DNA from: a virus
Length of the DNA: 23,092 nt
Strand: one strand, 5' to 3'
Virus record (IMG/VR): IMGVR_UViG_3300030085_003915
Span: 62,409 to 85,500 of that record
In this document: positions 2-22,858 of the stretch, in pieces
Position numbering within the stretch: the first letter of the stretch is position 1
Layout: every line of letters starts with the position of its first letter
The notes under the pieces: model-generated
Told to the model about the DNA's origin: nothing
The model's database searches: none
What the model saw: only the letters and a program-made list of their open reading frames with translations
Position numbers and translations under genes: made by a program

Positions 2-2308
2 ATCAAGTGTGTATGTGTAAGGTGTTTGTTTTGGTGTGTCTCCATCATATTCCGTATAAAGACCATCTGCGTCACCATCAAACTTCCACTTACCAAATGA
101 TACTGCACCGTCTAATCTAATCATATCATTTAGTTTCATTGAACCCTCTACTTCAAGACCTTGATGTTTTTGACCGATACCTTTTAGGAATATCACATCA
201 GTATCACCACTTGAACCTTGTCCAGTAGTTACAGCTTTAGTAAGGTTTCTATCTTTCCAATCAGTATTGTAAGCACTTACTTTGACTGCGAAGTTATCTG
301 AACTAAAGTTAACACCAGCTTCTGAACTAATGAATGATTCATTAGATGGGTCTGATGCAACTGTACCATCGTAATAGATTACGTTGTCCATAATTGGTGG
401 TTTTTCAACATATCCTGTGTTAGCAAATACACTAACATTATCGTCTACGTCATACATAGCTCCACCCTTAACTTGGAAAGTTGAGATAGCGTCTGCTTTA
501 ACTACTTCGTTAGCTACTGTAAAGTGGTCTTGGTAAGAATACTTAATACTTGATAATCCACCCATACCATAAACATTAAGTTTATCTTTAGTATATTTAC
601 CTTGTACGAATCCACCTAACCAATCAACTGTGGTACTATTATGATATGCGATGATATCACCTAGTCCCTTCATTTTACTTTCGTTAGTTGTGTTATTCTT
701 ATTAGATGAGTTAACAAAATAATCTCCACCTAATAAATCACGAACTTCACGAGCGTGTTCAATACCAGCAGTTCTCCAATCCAATCCAACTTGAACTTCA
801 AGTTCATCTGATACGTCATAGTTCAATTTAGAAATCACACCATAAGTGTTTTGTCTATTGATTGAATTACGAAGAATACCTGTAGAACGATTCTTTGTAG
901 CGTGATAATCAGTATCTACGTTATCAGAGTTTTGAGCAATTTCAGCATTCCAATCCCAAATCCAAGGCGAACTTCTATACCACTTTTCACCAGCGACTGC
1001 AGGACTTCTACTTACACTACCATAAGTTCCTGTTCCACCACCTGAACCACCACTCCAATAAAATACAGAACTCAAACGAGTTTTTTCATTTATTGTCATA
1101 AAGTGATTTAGATTTACTAATGGTTTATGAAAAAAGTTTTCTCTTTCATTAAGGAAATTAGAATTGTGTCTATTAGTTGTTCTTGCACCATACATATACC
1201 AGTATTGTTGACCTGTATAGTCTGAACTAACAGGTGCCCAATTTTGACTAAATGTACGACCAGCTTCTGTTTCGAATTTGTTACCTTCAGCAAACGCATC
1301 AGTATCATATCCGTCAATATCACCAGCTAACTCTTGTGAGTAAGTAGCAATATTTTGTTTATATAAGTTCTGACCGTGTCTTTGTGGAGCTCCAATTGCG
1401 TATAGTTCGAATCTGTTTTTATCATTTAACTGATATGAACTACCTAAATACCAAGCCCAAGCGTCTGTCCAGTTTCCATCAATAATACCATCACCAGTCT
1501 TACGGACTATCGTTCCACTAAGTGCTAGTTTATCACCAATCAAGCCTGTATTGTAATTAACAGTAGTTTTAAGAAAACCACCATCACCACCTTCTTGTTT
1601 GAACTTTCCACCTTTTGTCATTGATGCAGGGTCTGTTATGATGTTCATAGTTCCACCAATTGATGGTGTAGCTAAGTTAACAGCACTTAAACCACGTTGC
1701 ATCTGAATGGATTGAGCAGCATCTGCAACACCGTCCCAGTTAGACCAATAAACCCAACCATTTTCCATATCGTTTTGTGGAACTCCGTTAATCATTACTG
1801 CTACATTTCTCTGGTTGAATCCACGAACATTGATACGAGCATCCCCAGCACCACCACCTTGTTGAGTAGCGTATACACTTGGTGTAGTATTCAGAGCCAT
1901 TGGAATATCTTGTGAACCAAGACGAATTTCCATATCTTCTTTACTAACCGTTGTGTATGCAACAGGTGTTTTTTCATCAGCTCGAGAAGCCAAAACTTCT
2001 AATGCTGACATAGTAAGTGCATCAATCACAAGTGTGAAATCGACACTTACATCTTCTTTACCCACCGTAACTTCTTTAGTTACAGATGAGTAACCAATGA
2101 ATGAAGCAGTAATAGAATAAGTACCTTCGTCAAGTAATATCACATAGGCTCCAACCTCATCTGATACTGAACCTAACTCAGTTCCCTCAACTACTACATT
2201 TGCTCCAACCAAAGGATTATTGTTAGCATCATTTACAGTTCCAACAATAGATTGTGCGAACAATCCTGTCATCATCATAAGTGACACTAATAGATTACTT
2301 TTATTCAT
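2..2308 (-). CDS. TonB-dependent outer-membrane receptor (3' end cut by window edge)
   Basis: The frame is open from the ATG at 2308 to the window edge (769 codons, no stop). A signal peptide is visible at residues 1-20 (MNKSNLLVSLMMMTGLFAQS). Residues about 21-95 form a carboxypeptidase-regulatory-like beta domain (IVGTVNDANNNPLVGANVVV, then EGTYSITASFIGY). A linker follows with the TonB-box-like stretch ALEVLASRADEK. The plug domain spans about 115-230 (INVRGFNQRNVAVMINGVPQ, then SIGGTMNIITDP). The rest is an aromatic-rich beta-barrel. The ribosome site AAGGAGAACTTTTATG is strong. Such receptors import large nutrients (siderophores, cobalamin, glycans) through the outer membrane and are also common phage receptors. 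The N-terminal extension is typical of FCB-group bacteria; no SusD partner is visible. It lies 84 nt downstream of nrdJ on the same strand, and its G+C looks slightly higher by eye than its neighbours. The substrate cannot be told from sequence. The family call is firm; why a phage carries it is open. Confidence 0.93.
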   Translation of the reverse strand, partial: MNKSNLLVSLMMMTGLFAQSIVGTVNDANNNPLVGANVVVEGTELGSVSDEVGAYVILLDEGTYSITASFIGYSSVTKEVTVGKEDVSVDFTLVIDALTMSALEVLASRADEKTPVAYTTVSKEDMEIRLGSQDIPMALNTTPSVYATQQGGGAGDARINVRGFNQRNVAVMINGVPQNDMENGWVYWSNWDGVADAAQSIQMQRGLSAVNLATPSIGGTMNIITDPASMTKGGKFKQEGGDGGFLKTTVNYNTGLIGDKLALSGTIVRKTGDGIIDGNWTDAWAWYLGSSYQLNDKNRFELYAIGAPQRHGQNLYKQNIATYSQELAGDIDGYDTDAFAEGNKFETEAGRTFSQNWAPVSSDYTGQQYWYMYGARTTNRHNSNFLNERENFFHKPLVNLNHFMTINEKTRLSSVFYWSGGSGGGTGTYGSVSRSPAVAGEKWYRSSPWIWDWNAEIAQNSDNVDTDYHATKNRSTGILRNSINRQNTYGVISKLNYDVSDELEVQVGLDWRTAGIEHAREVRDLLGGDYFVNSSNKNNTTNESKMKGLGDIIAYHNSTTVDWLGGFVQGKYTKDKLNVYGMGGLSSIKYSYQDHFTVANEVVKADAISTFQVKGGAMYDVDDNVSVFANTGYVEKPPIMDNVIYYDGTVASDPSNESFISSEAGVNFSSDNFAVKVSAYNTDWKDRNLTKAVTTGQGSSGDTDVIFLKGIGQKHQGLEVEGSMKLNDMIRLDGAVSFGKWKFDGDADGLYTEYDGDTPKQTPYTYTLD

Positions 2309-2327
2309 AAAAGTTCTCCTTGTTTTG

Positions 2328-2359
2328 GTTAAGACACATTTTTTCACAGGTGTGTCAAC
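2328..2359. promoter_or_regulatory. Inverted repeat with TTGACA in the receptor leader
   Basis: In the 84-nt gap between nrdJ and the receptor gene, GTTaaGACACA (2328-2338) is complementary to TGTGTCAAC (2351-2359). The right arm contains a consensus -35 hexamer, TTGACA, read on the minus strand. No good -10 lies 16-18 nt downstream. The dyad could be an operator, an RNA hairpin controlling the receptor mRNA, or part of a transcription end for nrdJ. Confidence 0.4.
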
Positions 2360-2392
2360 TGCCTGTCCGCTGGTTTTATTGTATGTGAAATT

Positions 2393-4408
2393 TTAATTAG
2401 CATACTCTTGGTCATCATTATCACCAGTTGTGGGTGTTATCTCCACATCACAAAAATCACCATCACAGAATTTCTCTATGTTGGCTTCTTCTTTGTGTAT
2501 CACCCCAAAAGACAATTTTCCAAGTTTCTTAACTTGTTTATTATATTCTTTCTCATCTATTGACTCGTAGGGCATTTGTGGATAAGCTCCCAAGTCATGT
2601 CTTGGTAAAAGACTTATACCCTTTAAGTGATACTGAAAATAATTTAAAACTTGTGGTATTTCCTTACCTTCCTTCTCAGGATCGAATGTAACCGTACAAC
2701 TAACTTGATTGTCTGCCCAATGTCTTTGTAGGAACGCGGCTAAACTGAATTGTTCCCAAATGGATAATTCACTTACGGTCCTGATTCCTTCCCCAACATC
2801 AACGGGTACTTCAACAACCATCGTTGTATCCTCTGAACCAAATGCTGGTTCAATTTTATATCCTGCCTTTTTCATAGGTTCTAATAACTCTGAATGTTTT
2901 GAAACCCTTATTCTCCTAATGTAAAAACGACTCTCAGGATAATGTAATCCTGGAGTCGCTCCTGCTAATAGTGAAACTGTGCCACTTGGTTTTACTGATG
3001 TAGTCTTGATTGACTTAGGTATGGCGAACCAATCACTATACATCTTATCCCATTCTTGTATTGTATCATATCCACTCTCTAACCAATTTTTTAATTCGTG
3101 TAATCCTCGTTGAGTAATGAATTGTGCTACACCACTAACACTACAACCAATTCTTCTATTTCTTAACATCACTCTGTTAGTGTCACTCCAATGAGTTTTA
3201 CCAAGTGTTACCGATTTGGCATACAGATAAGCATATTTAAGTGTTCTTTGATAGTCCTCTAATGAATCGTGATTATTTGGAAATGTCTCTACTAAACAAC
3301 ATAGTTCGTAACTTTCTAATGATTGTTCCAAACAAGGATTTCCACCCATAACTCTGTGGTCTTTATTATCACCACCATTTTTCATTCTTGAATAATGTCT
3401 CATATTATCCAACCATGCGAAACCAGGTTCTCCATTGTCTACAATTCTTTTTGAAGCTTCTGTATAATCCATACCAAGTTCAGCAAATATACTATTATTA
3501 CTCGTCCAACCATATTGGTCTCTATGTGGATTTACTTTGTAATTCTTTAAGTCTAAGTATTCTTCATCATAAGGATCACCAAATACAATCTCAGCAGTTC
3601 TTCTTACATTACCTGCTACAACACATTTACCAATCAGATTCATTATGTCTACGATTGTTGTTACGGTTATGGGCTGTCCACTATTTTTTTCTAAAACATT
3701 TCTTATATCATCGTGTACTTCCATCAAAGGTTCAGGTCCTGAACTTACACCACCAAATCCTTTTATTGGAACACCTGCTGGTCTAACTTTTGAGTAATCA
3801 AACTCTACTATTGATTGTCCGTGAAAATAACTTTCTAATAAGAGTTTTAGTGATTCAACCCAACCCTCGCGAGTATCTGGTATTTCATAAGTTTGGGAAT
3901 CCCTATCCTTGTCCACTCCCTTTACAACTATCTCTCCAGCACCTTTAGTATCAAATCCAACTCCTACTCCTAACATACTTGCATCCATGAGGAAACAAAA
4001 TGGTTTTGAGTAATCTTCCTTGAGTGTTTTTGTTGATACAAATGCACAATTGTTTAGGGCGGCATACAAACCTTTTTCTTCGGTAACAGGTGTTCCCATT
4101 GCCCAAAGACCACGGCCGGGTGGCAGAAACTTCATAGTAAATATACGCTCATACATATCTTGAGCCGAAGATTGTGCTTGCCACGGATTCCACCCTAATT
4201 GATGTGAGTCAATCCAATTTTTTTGCATGGTATAAGTTCCCTCTACAACCCTTTGAACCGTTTCCCACCATCTTTCGTTTTTACCATCTTCTTTAATTCT
4301 TGAGTAGGTTCTCATGTAAACCAATTCACCTAAACCATTAAAACCAAATGGAGCCTTTTTTCTTTTGTACTTGTTTATAAAATTTTCTGATAACTTAAAT
4401 TTTTCCAT
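2393..4408 (-). CDS. nrdJ: Adenosylcobalamin-dependent (class II) ribonucleotide reductase
   Basis: This enzyme reduces ribonucleotides to deoxyribonucleotides in the cytoplasm with a coenzyme-B12 radical and needs neither oxygen nor a small subunit. At 671 aa it resembles the monomeric Lactobacillus-type RTPR. Visible motifs are FLPPGRGLW (94-102), NNCAF with the first redox cysteine C121, and NPCLEQ with the radical cysteine C359 and glutamate E361. The second redox cysteine is in ELCCL (C370/C371). The C-terminal shuttle pair is CDGDFC (648-653). All catalytic cysteines are present, so it should be active. The start has a good ribosome site (AGGAGAAATCGTACAG before ATG). It follows the helicase gene and precedes the TonB receptor, and with thyX supplies DNA precursors for phage replication. 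The predicted need for B12 is notable beside an outer-membrane receptor. A product acting on diphosphates instead of triphosphates cannot be excluded. Confidence 0.95.
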   Translation of the reverse strand: MEKFKLSENFINKYKRKKAPFGFNGLGELVYMRTYSRIKEDGKNERWWETVQRVVEGTYTMQKNWIDSHQLGWNPWQAQSSAQDMYERIFTMKFLPPGRGLWAMGTPVTEEKGLYAALNNCAFVSTKTLKEDYSKPFCFLMDASMLGVGVGFDTKGAGEIVVKGVDKDRDSQTYEIPDTREGWVESLKLLLESYFHGQSIVEFDYSKVRPAGVPIKGFGGVSSGPEPLMEVHDDIRNVLEKNSGQPITVTTIVDIMNLIGKCVVAGNVRRTAEIVFGDPYDEEYLDLKNYKVNPHRDQYGWTSNNSIFAELGMDYTEASKRIVDNGEPGFAWLDNMRHYSRMKNGGDNKDHRVMGGNPCLEQSLESYELCCLVETFPNNHDSLEDYQRTLKYAYLYAKSVTLGKTHWSDTNRVMLRNRRIGCSVSGVAQFITQRGLHELKNWLESGYDTIQEWDKMYSDWFAIPKSIKTTSVKPSGTVSLLAGATPGLHYPESRFYIRRIRVSKHSELLEPMKKAGYKIEPAFGSEDTTMVVEVPVDVGEGIRTVSELSIWEQFSLAAFLQRHWADNQVSCTVTFDPEKEGKEIPQVLNYFQYHLKGISLLPRHDLGAYPQMPYESIDEKEYNKQVKKLGKLSFGVIHKEEANIEKFCDGDFCDVEITPTTGDNDDQEYAN

Positions 4409-9428: not shown

Positions 9429-9937
9429 AATAAATTGGAAAGTTAGGGAATACAAACACACCCATCTCATCTTTTAATTCTGTAAAGATACTCTCCAAAT
9501 TTCGGAAATATAGGGGATGTAGGATTAACGATTACCTACAACTTCAAGCTCAGATTTTTTCTCCCTTGTACCTAACACCTATCAGTTACGATAGTTCTCC
9601 TCAATGATGGTTAGTCATCGTCAAAGTGAGTACAACCTCTGTGCCATTACCTTAACTCTCTGAGTTTAGTTTCTTCGGTCATAAAGTGGGATTTCGGTTT
9701 TACCCTTACCCACAACAAGGTCTAAAGAATCGTGTTCTTTATATGTTCTTGAAGTACATTCTCTTAGTATTGTCATACGATATTTTCAACATTTAGCCGA
9801 ATACCAACCCACCACAGGTCTAAGAGCGGATTACCTTATGAGCTTCTAAAGGTTACTCATTATTCGGTCAATCCCATACAGAGTTAATTACTCTCCGTAC
9901 TTCTCATTTCCAAAATTGTCAAAAAACTTTTGTCTCG
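9355..9937 (-). ncRNA. Candidate freestanding structured RNA, about 580 nt
   Basis: No ORF of useful length exists here on either strand, yet the stretch is bounded by a promoter (9944-9972) and an intrinsic terminator (9355-9428). Local G+C is higher than in the flanking spacers. Many perfect hairpins are present. Examples are TAAAGAA/TTCTTTA around 9723-9741 (5-nt loop), TGTAGG/CCTACA at 9518-9540, CTATC/GATAG at 9579-9594, GTGGG/CCCAC at 9686-9713 and AGAGT/ACTCT at 9880-9894. Two 7-bp helices cross: CTCTTAG (9761-9767) with CTAAGAG (9820-9826), and CCGAATA (9797-9803) with TATTCGG (9861-9867), which would make a pseudoknot. Size and phage setting recall the large ornate RNAs ROOL and GOLLD, but I cannot match conserved blocks of either. 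I see no tmRNA tag frame, RNase P core or clear group I intron core. Confidence 0.6.
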
Positions 9938-12089: not shown

Positions 12090-12926
12090 TCACTTTTTAT
12101 TATGAATTAAATCAAGTGCCAGATGATGTGAGAATCTACCCGCCTTCGGACCTCCATTCACTTTACCATCACTCTCACCTGGTACTTTTATCCAAAGATA
12201 GGCATCTACTATTTCATCACAAGTTTTTGTGGTGGGATATTCACCGATTGAACGACCAAATGGATTGAAGTGTTCTGAATTAGCTCCATTACCATTTCTT
12301 GAAGTATCGATTACAAAATGTTTATTGTTGAGTCTCTTTGAGATTTTTTTTCCGTATTCATAACAAGTTGATGTGGCATAATAATTACTCGTGTTTAGTG
12401 CAAAACCTTTAACTTTATGTACATCACACAATTCAAGATAACTTACTGCCTTATTGGTGGACAACCATTTTGGATTCCCTATATCGATGTAAATTAATGC
12501 ATTTGTTCTACTTAATAATTCAATACTTGCCTTAATCAACCTCATCCTATCCATTCCGTCAACAACTCCCATATGTTCCATGTGTGGAATACAATCAGGT
12601 TCATATATTACGATAGGTGATTTATCTCCAAGTGAATTACAAAACTCTTGTATGAATTCTAAATATTCATCATCTGAATCTGCACCACCTTTTGAATGAT
12701 GTCCTAAATCTCGTTGTGGAATTGAATATATTACCAATACGGGTAGGTAAGGATGTGCCCGTTTTAATAATCGTTGGATTGATTTTTTGGTCTTTCGGAT
12801 GGTTCTCTTAGGCCCAACTCCATACCAAAAAGCTATCGGTTCTTTTGTGATTTCTCTTATTTGTGGGTGTTTTTTACAAACCTCTTTACGACTATTCCAA
12901 TCTGGATAATAAAACCTATAATTCAT
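12090..12926 (-). CDS. Glycoside hydrolase family 6 enzyme (cellulase fold)
   Basis: GH6 enzymes hydrolyse beta-1,4-glucan with inversion. The 278-aa protein is nearly a bare catalytic domain. Matching blocks in order are LVIYSIPQRDLG with D73, IVIYEPD with the presumed acid D111, ALIYIDIGNPKWL, GFALNTSNYYAT, HFVIDTSRNGNG with D207, and DAYLWIKVPGESDG with E251/D253, then NGGPKAG. All conserved acidic positions I know for the family are present, so it looks catalytically intact. There is no signal peptide, no carbohydrate-binding module and no linker, unlike secreted bacterial cellulases. It overlaps the end of the 143-aa gene and has a poor ribosome site, implying coupled translation. In a phage it could act on a host exopolysaccharide, on release through lysis, or as a virion part; the real substrate is unknown. 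Confidence 0.92.
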   Translation of the reverse strand: MNYRFYYPDWNSRKEVCKKHPQIREITKEPIAFWYGVGPKRTIRKTKKSIQRLLKRAHPYLPVLVIYSIPQRDLGHHSKGGADSDDEYLEFIQEFCNSLGDKSPIVIYEPDCIPHMEHMGVVDGMDRMRLIKASIELLSRTNALIYIDIGNPKWLSTNKAVSYLELCDVHKVKGFALNTSNYYATSTCYEYGKKISKRLNNKHFVIDTSRNGNGANSEHFNPFGRSIGEYPTTKTCDEIVDAYLWIKVPGESDGKVNGGPKAGRFSHHLALDLIHNKK

Positions 12927-19369: not shown

Positions 19370-22300
19370 TTACCATTTCTGTCTCCACCATGAATCATCT
19401 TCGCCTGGATCGGAAACTCTCCATATAAATGGTTTGTCTTTTGTTGCATCATAGAGACCAGGTCCCGTATTTTTTACATCTTCAATTTTTATTTGACCTG
19501 TTGGTGTTCTTACCGTACGAGAACCAGCGTCATAGTCCTCACCAAGTCTACCGACAAACACCGATGTGCCTTGATTAATATCAGATTGGTTATATACATT
19601 ACCACTATTAATCTTATAAAGACCTGAACCTTCATCTGTTTCTTTTGCCTGATAAACTTTCTTTTCAAAGGTATCAAGAGCTGGATCATCAATATTCGTG
19701 GTTGCTTGTATTCCTGTGTTATCTACGGCAGTAGTTGTAATTGGTGTATATCCACCAATAGGTTTTGGTTTCATTGGGTCCATATTCAATGTGGTTGCTG
19801 GTGGTGAATCATCGTCCTCTGGTTGTGGATCTCCAAATGGTATTTGATACTCTCCTTGTGGTTGAAAAGTGTTATAAGTCGGTACTTCAGTATCGTATTT
19901 GTAATCCATATTATTTGTTTTTCTTTTTGGATATCCAGCAACTCTCATTTGTCCTTTTATGGTTGTAGTCCAACCAGTCGAATCTATTTTATGTGATGCA
20001 CCTATTGCCTGAAAACACATTTTATCCATGTATGATTTTGGTAGGTATGAACTATGAAATGAATTACCAGGAAATATTCCACCCGTTCCATCTATTTCTA
20101 TTTCAAAATCTATTGGTATTAGTGGATCGGTTACCTTTAAAACACCACCATTATCATTTAATAATATTTGTTGCATTATACCTCTGTATTCCGCCTTTAC
20201 TTTTGGATAGTACTCATCTTGATATCTCGCATTTTCTTCTTGTCGTTGAACCTCGTCTACCATAAAAACTTCCAAGTAACCCTCTCCAGCTTTTCTAAAA
20301 TTCTTCTTTTTTTCTTTTGCTTCTTCTTCTGCCTTTGCGAGGTCATCTGCAATTTTATCATCAAATTCTTTCTTTGCTTCTTCTGCTTCTTCTTCAGTCA
20401 TTCCTGTGGTATCAATTTTACCATAGGCTCTTTTTAGTCTCTCCGTGTATTCTTGTGTTAGTTGGTCGTTTAGAATTTCATTTATTCCCCTTCCCCATCC
20501 GTATTCATCGTTTTCGGTATTTAAACCCGAAGTTAAGGCTTCGTAATCGGAATTTGCTATAATTGCGGCAGCTGCTACTGCACCTACACCACCAGTTAAT
20601 GCACCTGCACCTCCTATAATTGCCAATTGTCCTGCAATATCTGTCCAAGAAAGTGAATTTGCACCTAAATCTTCATAAATCGTGGTGGTATCGGGTGTAG
20701 GTCCTATTTTCCATTGTAATGGTTTATTATCATCTGCCGAGGCGTTTCCAAATGTAAAAGGTTTGTGTTGAGTTGCTTCTGAATTATTATGTGGATGTGA
20801 ATGTCGTTTGAATGGATGGTCAACCTCACCCATCAGTATGTCTTGTAACATTCTATCTTGTTGGTCTTTTCTATCCGTGGCCATTTCTGCCTTTCCAAGA
20901 GCCATTGCTCCCCAATCCTTATGACCATTGATTTCCCCATCACCAAATTCAAGTTGATTATTTCCGTATAATGCTGCTATCTGCATCCTACTTGGTAATT
21001 TTGCATTTAGGTTTTGAGATATAACAAGTGAATTTTTTTCCCATACAGGAAATACAAATAATCCTGGTTGAGTTTCTTCACCTTCCAAATCATAACCTCT
21101 ATTGGTAGATTTATTTTCCAAAACCTTCTCAACTCTCTTTTGTGTGAATCCTTGATCTTTAATCATAAGTCTACCTTCCTTATCATCAAAGTGAATTCCA
21201 AAATCATATATTCCACCATAAGCGTTAGAAAATTTATTCCAAACTGCCTCCACTCCATCTGCAATGGTAGATGCACCTACAAAACATTCTGTTAAAAATT
21301 CATGACCAAAGTAAACATTTCTTATAGTTCCTTTATCTCCATCTTCGTTTAACCATTTTCTAAAATATGAACCTTCGTAGTTCCATTTTGCATCTTTACT
21401 TCCTAAAAATGTTTCTTTCCAATATACTTCCCAAGGAGTTCCATCTTTCCACCCCTTTCCTATCCACTTACCAGTTCCTCTGTTACTTTCTTGTACATAT
21501 GGAGGTCCAAACATCAATTTAAAATCACCCATTTCTGCATCAATAGTTGCTAAACTTGCAAACCATTGTTTCAATGAATAATCAAAACCTTGTTCGTATT
21601 TTGTGTAAACTTTCATACCAGGAATTAATACAGAATTTTCTTCATTTTTAAAACTAGCTTCTGGATCATCACCACCTTGAGCAAAAAACCAACCCTTTGG
21701 TGAGTAATCAATAGCAATTATATCCTTTGATGCATTGACTTGTACAGGTTTTGGTTCATCCAATGGATTACCATCATTATCGTACTGAGTTTCTAAGCTT
21801 CTAAACTCCGTAACTATTTTTGATTTTTTACTTTCAATCTGTCCAACAAAACGACTCAAAACATTATCCTCAAACCAACCCCAAGTACAATATGGTTCAT
21901 CATTTCCCAACAAATAAGCAATAGTACCCTTAGAATTTATAGCGTTCAAATGTAAATGACCTTCAAATGATTTCATATATGCTACAAAATTATAATATGG
22001 ATTTTTATCATTTATTTGTGCACCAAGTATTGCCTTATCCTTAGACCACCACCAAAATCCTTCCTCTGGTGCTGCAATTGGAAGTTCTGATAATCTTCCT
22101 TTCATACTTTCAGGTTCTCTCATTTTATTAAGAGTATTAACTCCCAACGAAACTAATTCAGTAGTACAATCAAATCCACCAGTTTCATTAACACTAAATT
22201 CAAAATTACTTATCGTACCCAAAACAGCATCATAATGACCTTTCTGTTCTATGATAAAATCAGGTAAATACTCTTGTAATGTTTTTGAGTTAGTACCTGT

Positions 22301-22858
22301 TCCATTTATTAAATCTTCATTCAATGTACCATCCGAGTTTGTAATTGGTAACATCTGTGGTTTATCTGGTCCATCAAAACCCCAACCAAATTCAATTAAA
22401 ACTGACCTACCATGTTTTAAAAAGAATGGTTTAAATTTTTGTAATTCTTCCCAACTCCAACAAGTCCAACTGATAGATGTTTTTCTCGTAGCACCGATTT
22501 TCATACCACCACCAGCATACTCAACATTTACATCCTTTATTCCTGCCAATGGTCTTTTATTAATATTCTTATCATCTTCAGGTCCGTTTCTTGGCCCATA
22601 TATGTCCATTCCATGTTGTAATGTGTTGTCCACTTCCTCTCCACCACTCAGTATAATTGGTTTACCATCAGCAGTTAACATTGATACCATTCTCAAGAAA
22701 ACACTTCTTGTGAACATATAATTAGATTGTTTTGGATCTCCTCCGTCATCCGATAGAGTTTCTCCGATGTTAAATGTATTCGTGCCTTTGTCGAGAAAAC
22801 GCATTTTCTTGAGTAGAGTTTTTTGTATGGGTTTTAATATTGGACTAAAGGTAATCAT
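19370..22858 (-). CDS. Large baseplate hub-like structural protein, 1162 aa
   Basis: The longest gene in the window. Near residues 105-150 it has GMKIGATRKTSISWTCWSWE and ELQKFKPFFLKHGRSVLIEF followed by GWG, a domain that I associate with baseplate or hub proteins of marine T4-like phages. A long middle part continues without recognised enzyme motifs. A coiled-coil segment (about 835-885, DKIADDLAKAEEEAKEKKKN) follows. Near 950-1010 a block reads PIDFEIEIDGTGGIFPGNSF, then HSSYLPKSYMDKMCFQAIGA and TTIKGQMRVAGYP, which resembles the barrel/hub domain of late-control-D/gp27-like proteins. A repetitive PE/T-rich tail ends the protein. It follows a gp53-like gene with a TAG-ATG junction. The hub role is inferred from the domain pattern and neighbours. 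Confidence 0.75.
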   Translation of the reverse strand: MITFSPILKPIQKTLLKKMRFLDKGTNTFNIGETLSDDGGDPKQSNYMFTRSVFLRMVSMLTADGKPIILSGGEEVDNTLQHGMDIYGPRNGPEDDKNINKRPLAGIKDVNVEYAGGGMKIGATRKTSISWTCWSWEELQKFKPFFLKHGRSVLIEFGWGFDGPDKPQMLPITNSDGTLNEDLINGTGTNSKTLQEYLPDFIIEQKGHYDAVLGTISNFEFSVNETGGFDCTTELVSLGVNTLNKMREPESMKGRLSELPIAAPEEGFWWWSKDKAILGAQINDKNPYYNFVAYMKSFEGHLHLNAINSKGTIAYLLGNDEPYCTWGWFEDNVLSRFVGQIESKKSKIVTEFRSLETQYDNDGNPLDEPKPVQVNASKDIIAIDYSPKGWFFAQGGDDPEASFKNEENSVLIPGMKVYTKYEQGFDYSLKQWFASLATIDAEMGDFKLMFGPPYVQESNRGTGKWIGKGWKDGTPWEVYWKETFLGSKDAKWNYEGSYFRKWLNEDGDKGTIRNVYFGHEFLTECFVGASTIADGVEAVWNKFSNAYGGIYDFGIHFDDKEGRLMIKDQGFTQKRVEKVLENKSTNRGYDLEGEETQPGLFVFPVWEKNSLVISQNLNAKLPSRMQIAALYGNNQLEFGDGEINGHKDWGAMALGKAEMATDRKDQQDRMLQDILMGEVDHPFKRHSHPHNNSEATQHKPFTFGNASADDNKPLQWKIGPTPDTTTIYEDLGANSLSWTDIAGQLAIIGGAGALTGGVGAVAAAAIIANSDYEALTSGLNTENDEYGWGRGINEILNDQLTQEYTERLKRAYGKIDTTGMTEEEAEEAKKEFDDKIADDLAKAEEEAKEKKKNFRKAGEGYLEVFMVDEVQRQEENARYQDEYYPKVKAEYRGIMQQILLNDNGGVLKVTDPLIPIDFEIEIDGTGGIFPGNSFHSSYLPKSYMDKMCFQAIGASHKIDSTGWTTTIKGQMRVAGYPKRKTNNMDYKYDTEVPTYNTFQPQGEYQIPFGDPQPEDDDSPPATTLNMDPMKPKPIGGYTPITTTAVDNTGIQATTNIDDPALDTFEKKVYQAKETDEGSGLYKINSGNVYNQSDINQGTSVFVGRLGEDYDAGSRTVRTPTGQIKIEDVKNTGPGLYDATKDKPFIWRVSDPGEDDSWWRQKW

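Follow-up and report, generated by a model that had tools for sequence, protein, structure and literature searches.

Phages that encode proteins of the bacterial outer membrane are known, and among them is the lambdoid phage PA-2, whose Lc protein is an outer-membrane porin. Some phage-encoded porins are known to exclude other phages, and TonB-dependent receptors are common phage receptors. Pseudoknots in the leaders of genes are also known, such as preQ1-I and other small H-type pseudoknot riboswitches and the pseudoknot in the leader of T4 gene 32. The marine megaphage Mar_Mega_1, in turn, encodes the TonB-dependent receptor SusC, which has been proposed to raise nutrient uptake in infection (PMC9723777); this protein is probably the BFVD entry A0A8D9FQQ5. 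Finally, Class II, B12-dependent ribonucleotide reductases (RTPR) have been described in virioplankton, in a paper that makes no mention of TonB or BtuB (PMC10547690).

Here we describe a TonB-dependent receptor gene that stands among the replication genes of T4-like phages. The explanation that we regard as fairly probable is that the gene derives from SAR406 bacteria (Ca. Marinimicrobia/Fidelibacterota), encodes a functional TonB-dependent transporter kept by the phages as a nutrient importer, and is controlled by an RNA pseudoknot in its leader.

The receptor gene and its phage neighborhood

The window analyzed, a stretch of 23,092 nucleotides, covers bases 62409-85500, the right end, of an IMG/VR virus record of 85,500 bases (85.5 kb). 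The receptor ORF starts with an ATG at 2308 on the minus strand and is open at the left edge of the window (Table 1); in the record the gene is complete, with 908 codons and a stop, its 3' end at record base 61990, 419 bases left of the window, and a 10-N scaffold gap within the gene just left of window base 1. A first, sequence-only reading had described a full receptor directly behind nrdJ, on the same strand and with a strong ribosome site. The signal peptide, the regulatory-like domain, the plug, the ribosome site, and the position 84 nt downstream of nrdJ all agree with that description, except that the window itself holds 769 of the 908 residues. The segment EVLASRA, located before the plug, is invariant across 22 aligned phages and identical in hosts. 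With the SusC/RagA model TIGR04056, the receptor gave a partial match of 62.6 bits, limited to its N-terminal part, against a cut-off of 368.25, which is far below what membership of this subfamily requires. Among the genes listed on either side of the phage and host loci, no SusD-type lipoprotein gene was recognized.

Table 1. Features of the receptor locus, with positions in the window
Feature	Position	Strand	Basis or remark
TonB-dependent receptor CDS, residues 1-769 of 908	2..2308	-	remainder at record bases 61990-62408, across the 10-N gap
Signal peptide MNKSNLLVSLMMMTGLFAQ, residues 1-19	2252..2308	-	read from sequence; phage alignment conserves the hydrophobic N-terminus; helix 4-13 in AF2 model of homologue L006
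CarbopepD_reg_2 (carboxypeptidase-regulatory-like N-terminal domain)	2009..2248	-	Pfam, residues 21-100, E 9.5e-17
Putative TonB-box region around ALEVLASRA	1979..2017	-	assigned by position between N-terminal domain and plug
TonB-dependent receptor Plug	1649..1975	-	Pfam, residues 112-220, E 4.4e-15
Beta-barrel, C-terminal part outside the window	2..1612	-	~22 strands in model of complete homologue L006
Ribosome-binding site AAGGAGA	2315..2321	-	6 nt before ATG; read from sequence
34-nt H-type RNA pseudoknot	2333..2366	-	leader comparison, covariation
P1, 5 bp, ACAGG/CCUGU	2362-2366 with 2346-2350	-	pseudoknot helix
P2, 6 bp, GACACA/UGUGUC	2351-2356 with 2333-2338	-	pseudoknot helix
A-rich linker, invariant	2339-2345	-	joins the pseudoknot helices
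TTCACATAC box	2381..2389	-	precedes pseudoknot in about half of distinct phage leaders, in both genomic contexts
nrdJ, monomeric adenosylcobalamin-dependent ribonucleoside-triphosphate reductase (RTPR)	2393..4408	-	RTPR equivalog TIGR02505

To the left of the receptor lie a 178-aa ORF, a T4-type DNA polymerase (phrog_262, E 4e-183), a processivity factor (clamp), and a clamp loader, while to the right nrdJ is accompanied by a DnaB-type helicase, an exonuclease, a UvsX-like recombinase, and a gp32-like protein. With phage replication genes on both flanks, the receptor is therefore within a phage replication block, and the left flank consists of these T4-like genes, not of the bacterial housekeeping genes that would have spoken against a phage locus. 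A scan of IMG/VR returned 326 viral relatives, of which the best 80, being 71-94% identical and coming from 69 metagenome ids, were used to study synteny. In nearly all of the adequately flanked loci among these best 80 of 326, the order nrdJ, receptor, optional small ORFs, polymerase, clamp, and clamp loader is found on one strand, and it is retained even where polymerase identity falls to ~60%. The junction between nrdJ and the receptor, sought in related phage contigs as the first reading had advised, recurs in dozens of independently assembled ones, and the receptor is confirmed as a genuine phage gene. Among named phages, the only matches were to megaphages and to fragments of gut phages, at no more than ~30% identity, and no report of such a receptor in T4-like phages was found in the literature, searched in open-licence papers.

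The receptor is an accessory gene at the junction between nrdJ and the polymerase. When loci were fetched by nrdJ, it adjoined nrdJ in 59 of 66 usable cases, and when they were fetched by the polymerase, it was present in 19 of 63 usable ones; the two samples are overlapping best-hit lists, so these fractions are not population frequencies. In the seven nrdJ-fetched loci without the receptor, nrdJ is followed straight by the polymerase (four) or by a 328-aa glutamine synthetase (three). Glutamine synthetase genes of ~330 aa stand at this junction alone or beside the receptor (L168:8028-9014, L021:7957-8946, L057:8861-9865, L302:5982-6974), the two genes occur together in loci L021, L023, and L057, and all three of the junction glutamine synthetases tested have the Pfam domains Gln-synt_N and Gln-synt_C. 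On the polymerase tree, presence and absence of the receptor need about five changes, at least four of them forced by well-supported branches, and many sister phages are without the receptor, so that it is not essential. Among 23 records with no receptor at the junction, which may be fragments, none was found to have it elsewhere.

A second context is represented by four fragments (L007, L008, L016, L020), in which the receptor follows a membrane ORF of ~281 aa and nrdJ was not found; a peptide deformylase gene is nearby in L007 and L016, together with genes that by sequence appearance are of the queuosine type. Two further peculiarities of the junction were recorded. In L186 and L263, a tRNA-like sequence, read by eye, occurs just after nrdJ in the gap that leads to the polymerase without a receptor. 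In L023:2165-7018, nrdJ is 99.6% identical to that of the window, and the receptor matches over residues 1 to ~56 and is ~76% identical beyond them, a pattern that reflects either recombination with a breakpoint in the receptor gene or a contig that is chimeric.

Other features of the record deserve mention. A manA RNA (RF01745; 66.6 bits, above gathering) is located at 9514-9714 of the window, on the minus strand, and the same strand encodes at 12090-12926 a glycosyl hydrolase of family 6, a cellulase-type family (Pfam E 7.6e-46), here in a T4-like phage, and at 19370-22858 a 1162-aa ORF with no Pfam or PHROG match. Bases 17000-55000 of the record hold a very large block of sugar- and glycan-type genes (L003-L005), which by sequence appearance include epimerases, aminotransferases, and glycosyltransferases.

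Ancestry, selection, and predicted transport

The first reading had noted that such receptors are host genes as a rule, and had suggested placing this one in a receptor tree to find the donor. Both points bear on what was found, namely a receptor of host type in the replication block of many related phages, with SAR406 as the donor indicated by the tree. The closest cellular homologues are those of SAR406, 60-67% identical, followed by those of other FCB bacteria at 45-53%, and a strong homologue is present in 111 of 199 sampled SAR406 genomes, usually as a single copy. In the receptor tree, the phage copies cluster within SAR406 as a single, well-supported group, except for one nested SAR406 sequence, L086. 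The latter comes from a contig of a SAR406 MAG (JAFMFP010000048.1) with two tandem receptor genes, of which one is nested among the phage copies. Because L086 falls inside the phage clade, a strict single origin of that clade is rejected (AU p 8e-9 when the phage rows are forced together without L086). It is possible that a host regained the gene from a phage, or that phages acquired it more than once, L086 being a long branch. Capture of the receptor from SAR406 is thus supported by the tree, and, as judged from the receptor gene only, SAR406 is the presumed host of these phages.

Across 66 pairs of close phage copies, dN/dS was 0.05-0.19, and by this measure the phage receptors are under purifying selection and maintained in phages. 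The plug is the most conserved domain, with pairwise identities of 89% in phages and 90% in hosts. For L006, a complete homologue, the AF2 model has a mean pLDDT of 85 and shows ~22 strands, and with it Foldseek retrieved the TonB-dependent transporters PqqU, Fiu, FhuA, FecA, and BtuB, along with one viral TonB receptor, 12% identical, from an uncultured marine phage. The protein thus has the parts expected of a TonB-dependent transporter, that is, a plug in a 22-strand barrel (in the model of L006), a signal-like N-terminus, and a TonB box assigned by position. Purifying selection, together with the kept plug, TonB box, and extracellular face, therefore makes transport likelier than a surface decoy, and we consider the receptor more likely to be a working transporter. 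Being a host-type gene among phage genes that is kept by selection, it qualifies as a putative auxiliary metabolic gene; glutamine synthetase, another metabolic gene, shares its site.

As for the cargo, a gene for a phosphodiesterase/nucleotide pyrophosphatase (PF01663) accompanies a distant homologue of the receptor in 20 of 80 FCB loci, usually as the next gene, and in the SAR406 locus L097 a PF01663 enzyme and an S1/P1 nuclease lie ~4 kb upstream of the receptor homologue. The link comes from the distant homologues (45-53% identity), and the PF01663 gene is adjacent to the receptor in none of the SAR406 loci examined. Judged by this distant association, the substrate is most likely a compound rich in phosphorus and nitrogen, for instance nucleotides or other phosphoesters.

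A pseudoknot in the receptor leader

Between nrdJ and the receptor, the phage leaders carry a short pseudoknot (Table 1), which occurs in 148 of 151 phage receptor leaders (L084 has a variant and L173 a degraded form) and whose 3' end is 24-39 nt before the receptor ATG. Among 48 distinct sequences, standard pairs make up 96.8% of the pair cells against 88.5% after shuffling, and compensatory double changes number 40 against 7.9, with none of 500 shuffles as high, the control being one that ignores the relatedness of the sequences. Three pairs covary in each helix, every slid register fails, and AU/UA, CG/UA, and GC/AU exchanges occur in both helices; such exchanges appear to indicate selection on the RNA structure and are otherwise hard to explain.

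The element is tied to the receptor. When viral contigs were scanned with its pattern, 114 sites were obtained, and all 107 that are followed by at least 150 nt lead into the receptor (106 assigned by tblastn, L451 by reading). The pattern was absent from 199 SAR406 genomes with up to two mismatches allowed, the SAR406 receptor leaders inspected are without the pseudoknot, and no copy was found after the receptor gene or elsewhere. Its presence in both genomic contexts assigns the pseudoknot to the receptor unit. A search of Rfam with the leader gave no significant match, even at permissive thresholds, and on this ground preQ1 or another known riboswitch was rejected. The 3' half of P2 might instead pair with the TTCACATAC box, but this helix was dropped because the letters do not covary, and 15 distinct leaders would have an A-C pairing. 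No clear helix masking the ribosome site was seen in the leader by single-strand folding, a method that gives no information here because pseudoknots are beyond the program.

The pseudoknot is most likely a riboswitch or a translational operator for the receptor, and likely a new, previously uncatalogued cis-regulatory RNA. More tentatively, and with rather more doubt than belief, we suggest that the leader may be a new, phage-only, metabolite-sensing pseudoknot riboswitch, whose ligand would be the receptor's cargo or a derivative of it; the phage would then sense a limiting nutrient within the infected cell, and the importer would be installed only when needed.

Competing explanations and comparison with known systems

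An alternative that we think unlikely is receptor replacement or superinfection exclusion, in which the phage variant competes with or replaces the host receptor and keeps other phages that use it from adsorbing, while import continues. It would fit the common use of TonB-dependent receptors by phages, the precedent of the excluding porins, and the single receptor copy of most receptor-bearing SAR406 genomes. The extracellular loops bear on it in both directions. In SAR406 they diverge more than the strands (conservation of 0.60 vs 0.73), as expected under phage pressure, whereas in the phages they are as conserved as the strands (0.75 vs 0.76), not diversified; the two sets are of unequal depth, and the loop limits are approximate, since they were taken from the secondary structure of the L006 model. 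Conserved loops could also mean a binding or blocking role, but phage and host receptors differ by only one fixed residue, and the TonB box and plug that the phages have kept are unneeded by a simple blocker.

It is more improbable that the receptor imports cobalamin for the adjacent ribonucleotide reductase, a reading prompted by the B12-dependent RTPR type of nrdJ and by the proposal that enhanced B12 uptake by such phages is possible (PMC10547690). The record also has a weak CobT-like protein (phrog_5298, E 1.9e-7) next to a MoxR/AAA protein; the two genes, at L003:529-1710 and L003:1796-3814, are a possible cobalt-chelatase-like pair. The mapping of cobalamin riboswitches in SAR406 counters the idea. 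One is present in 15 of 17 genomes, in the loci examined it stands at a different receptor and never at this homologue, and the five adjoining genes tested with Pfam encode other plug-domain receptors; B12 is thus disfavored. Neither a cobalamin riboswitch nor btu neighbors, the marks of a BtuB, occur at the host homologues in the loci examined. Besides, many related phages have nrdJ without the receptor, their genomes being fragments, and in four loci the receptor is away from nrdJ.

Very improbable, in our estimate, is the notion that box, pseudoknot, and receptor form a selfish mobile unit whose leader would be a signal for recombination or processing rather than a regulator. Such a unit would explain the two genomic contexts, box included, the repeated gains or losses on the polymerase tree, and the L023 receptor that diverges behind a nearly identical nrdJ. 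Against it are the compensatory changes in both helices, which point to selection on RNA structure, the nearly fixed position of the pseudoknot relative to the ribosome site, and its absence after the gene or elsewhere. That a bacterial contig was joined to a phage contig during assembly is next to inconceivable: the stretches of the record that were read do contain short N gaps (three with 10 N and a fourth with 11 N), and the receptor contains one of these, but the same gene order in dozens of other contigs, the phage-specific leader, and the grouping of the phage copies in the phylogeny contradict it, and the recurrence of the nrdJ-receptor junction refutes it.

Of the three roles that the sequence-only reading had offered, boosting or maintaining uptake fits best with the low dN/dS, the conserved TonB box, plug, and loops, and the one fixed difference from the host. 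In a phage-kept importer of SAR406 descent, the receptor would be translated from phage mRNA during infection, its signal peptide would direct its export, and once inserted in the outer membrane it would draw energy from the TonB system of the host. Import of one scarce nutrient could then be kept up, or raised, while host synthesis is shut down, and the covarying pseudoknot would control translation of the receptor, as a metabolite-sensing switch or as an operator bound by a protein.

These findings suggest that a widespread group of uncultured marine phages remodels the outer membrane of SAR406, a major uncultured lineage of the ocean. The receptor would tie the phages to a probable host and suggests that nutrient import is among the targets of infection, while the pseudoknot could open a route to the cargo of an orphan receptor through the ligand of an RNA, with no culturing of host or phage. 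In the sources available, neither the pseudoknot nor the presence of such a receptor in these phages appears to have been described.

Each of the known systems shares a part of this locus. The SAR406 and FCB receptors have the same order of domains (CarbopepD_reg, Plug, barrel), those of SAR406 being 60-67% identical with TonB box and plug conserved, but they stand among bacterial genes and are without the pseudoknot leader. Lc is likewise a host-derived outer-membrane beta-barrel on a phage that may alter the cell surface, although porins are passive and TonB-independent and PA-2 is not T4-like. The RTPR virioplankton have the same type of nrdJ, while many RTPR phages of the present set are without the receptor. 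The preQ1-I and T4 gene 32 elements are also short pseudoknots with an A-rich linker before a ribosome site, from which the present one differs in its consensus and in a P2 of 6 bp that directly abuts P1. Finally, Mar_Mega_1 is alike in being a marine phage with a TonB-dependent receptor; it is a single megaphage with one relative and a host that is unknown (PMC9723777), whereas the receptor described here is recurrent and syntenic in T4-like phages, has a probable donor in SAR406, and comes with an RNA element of its own.
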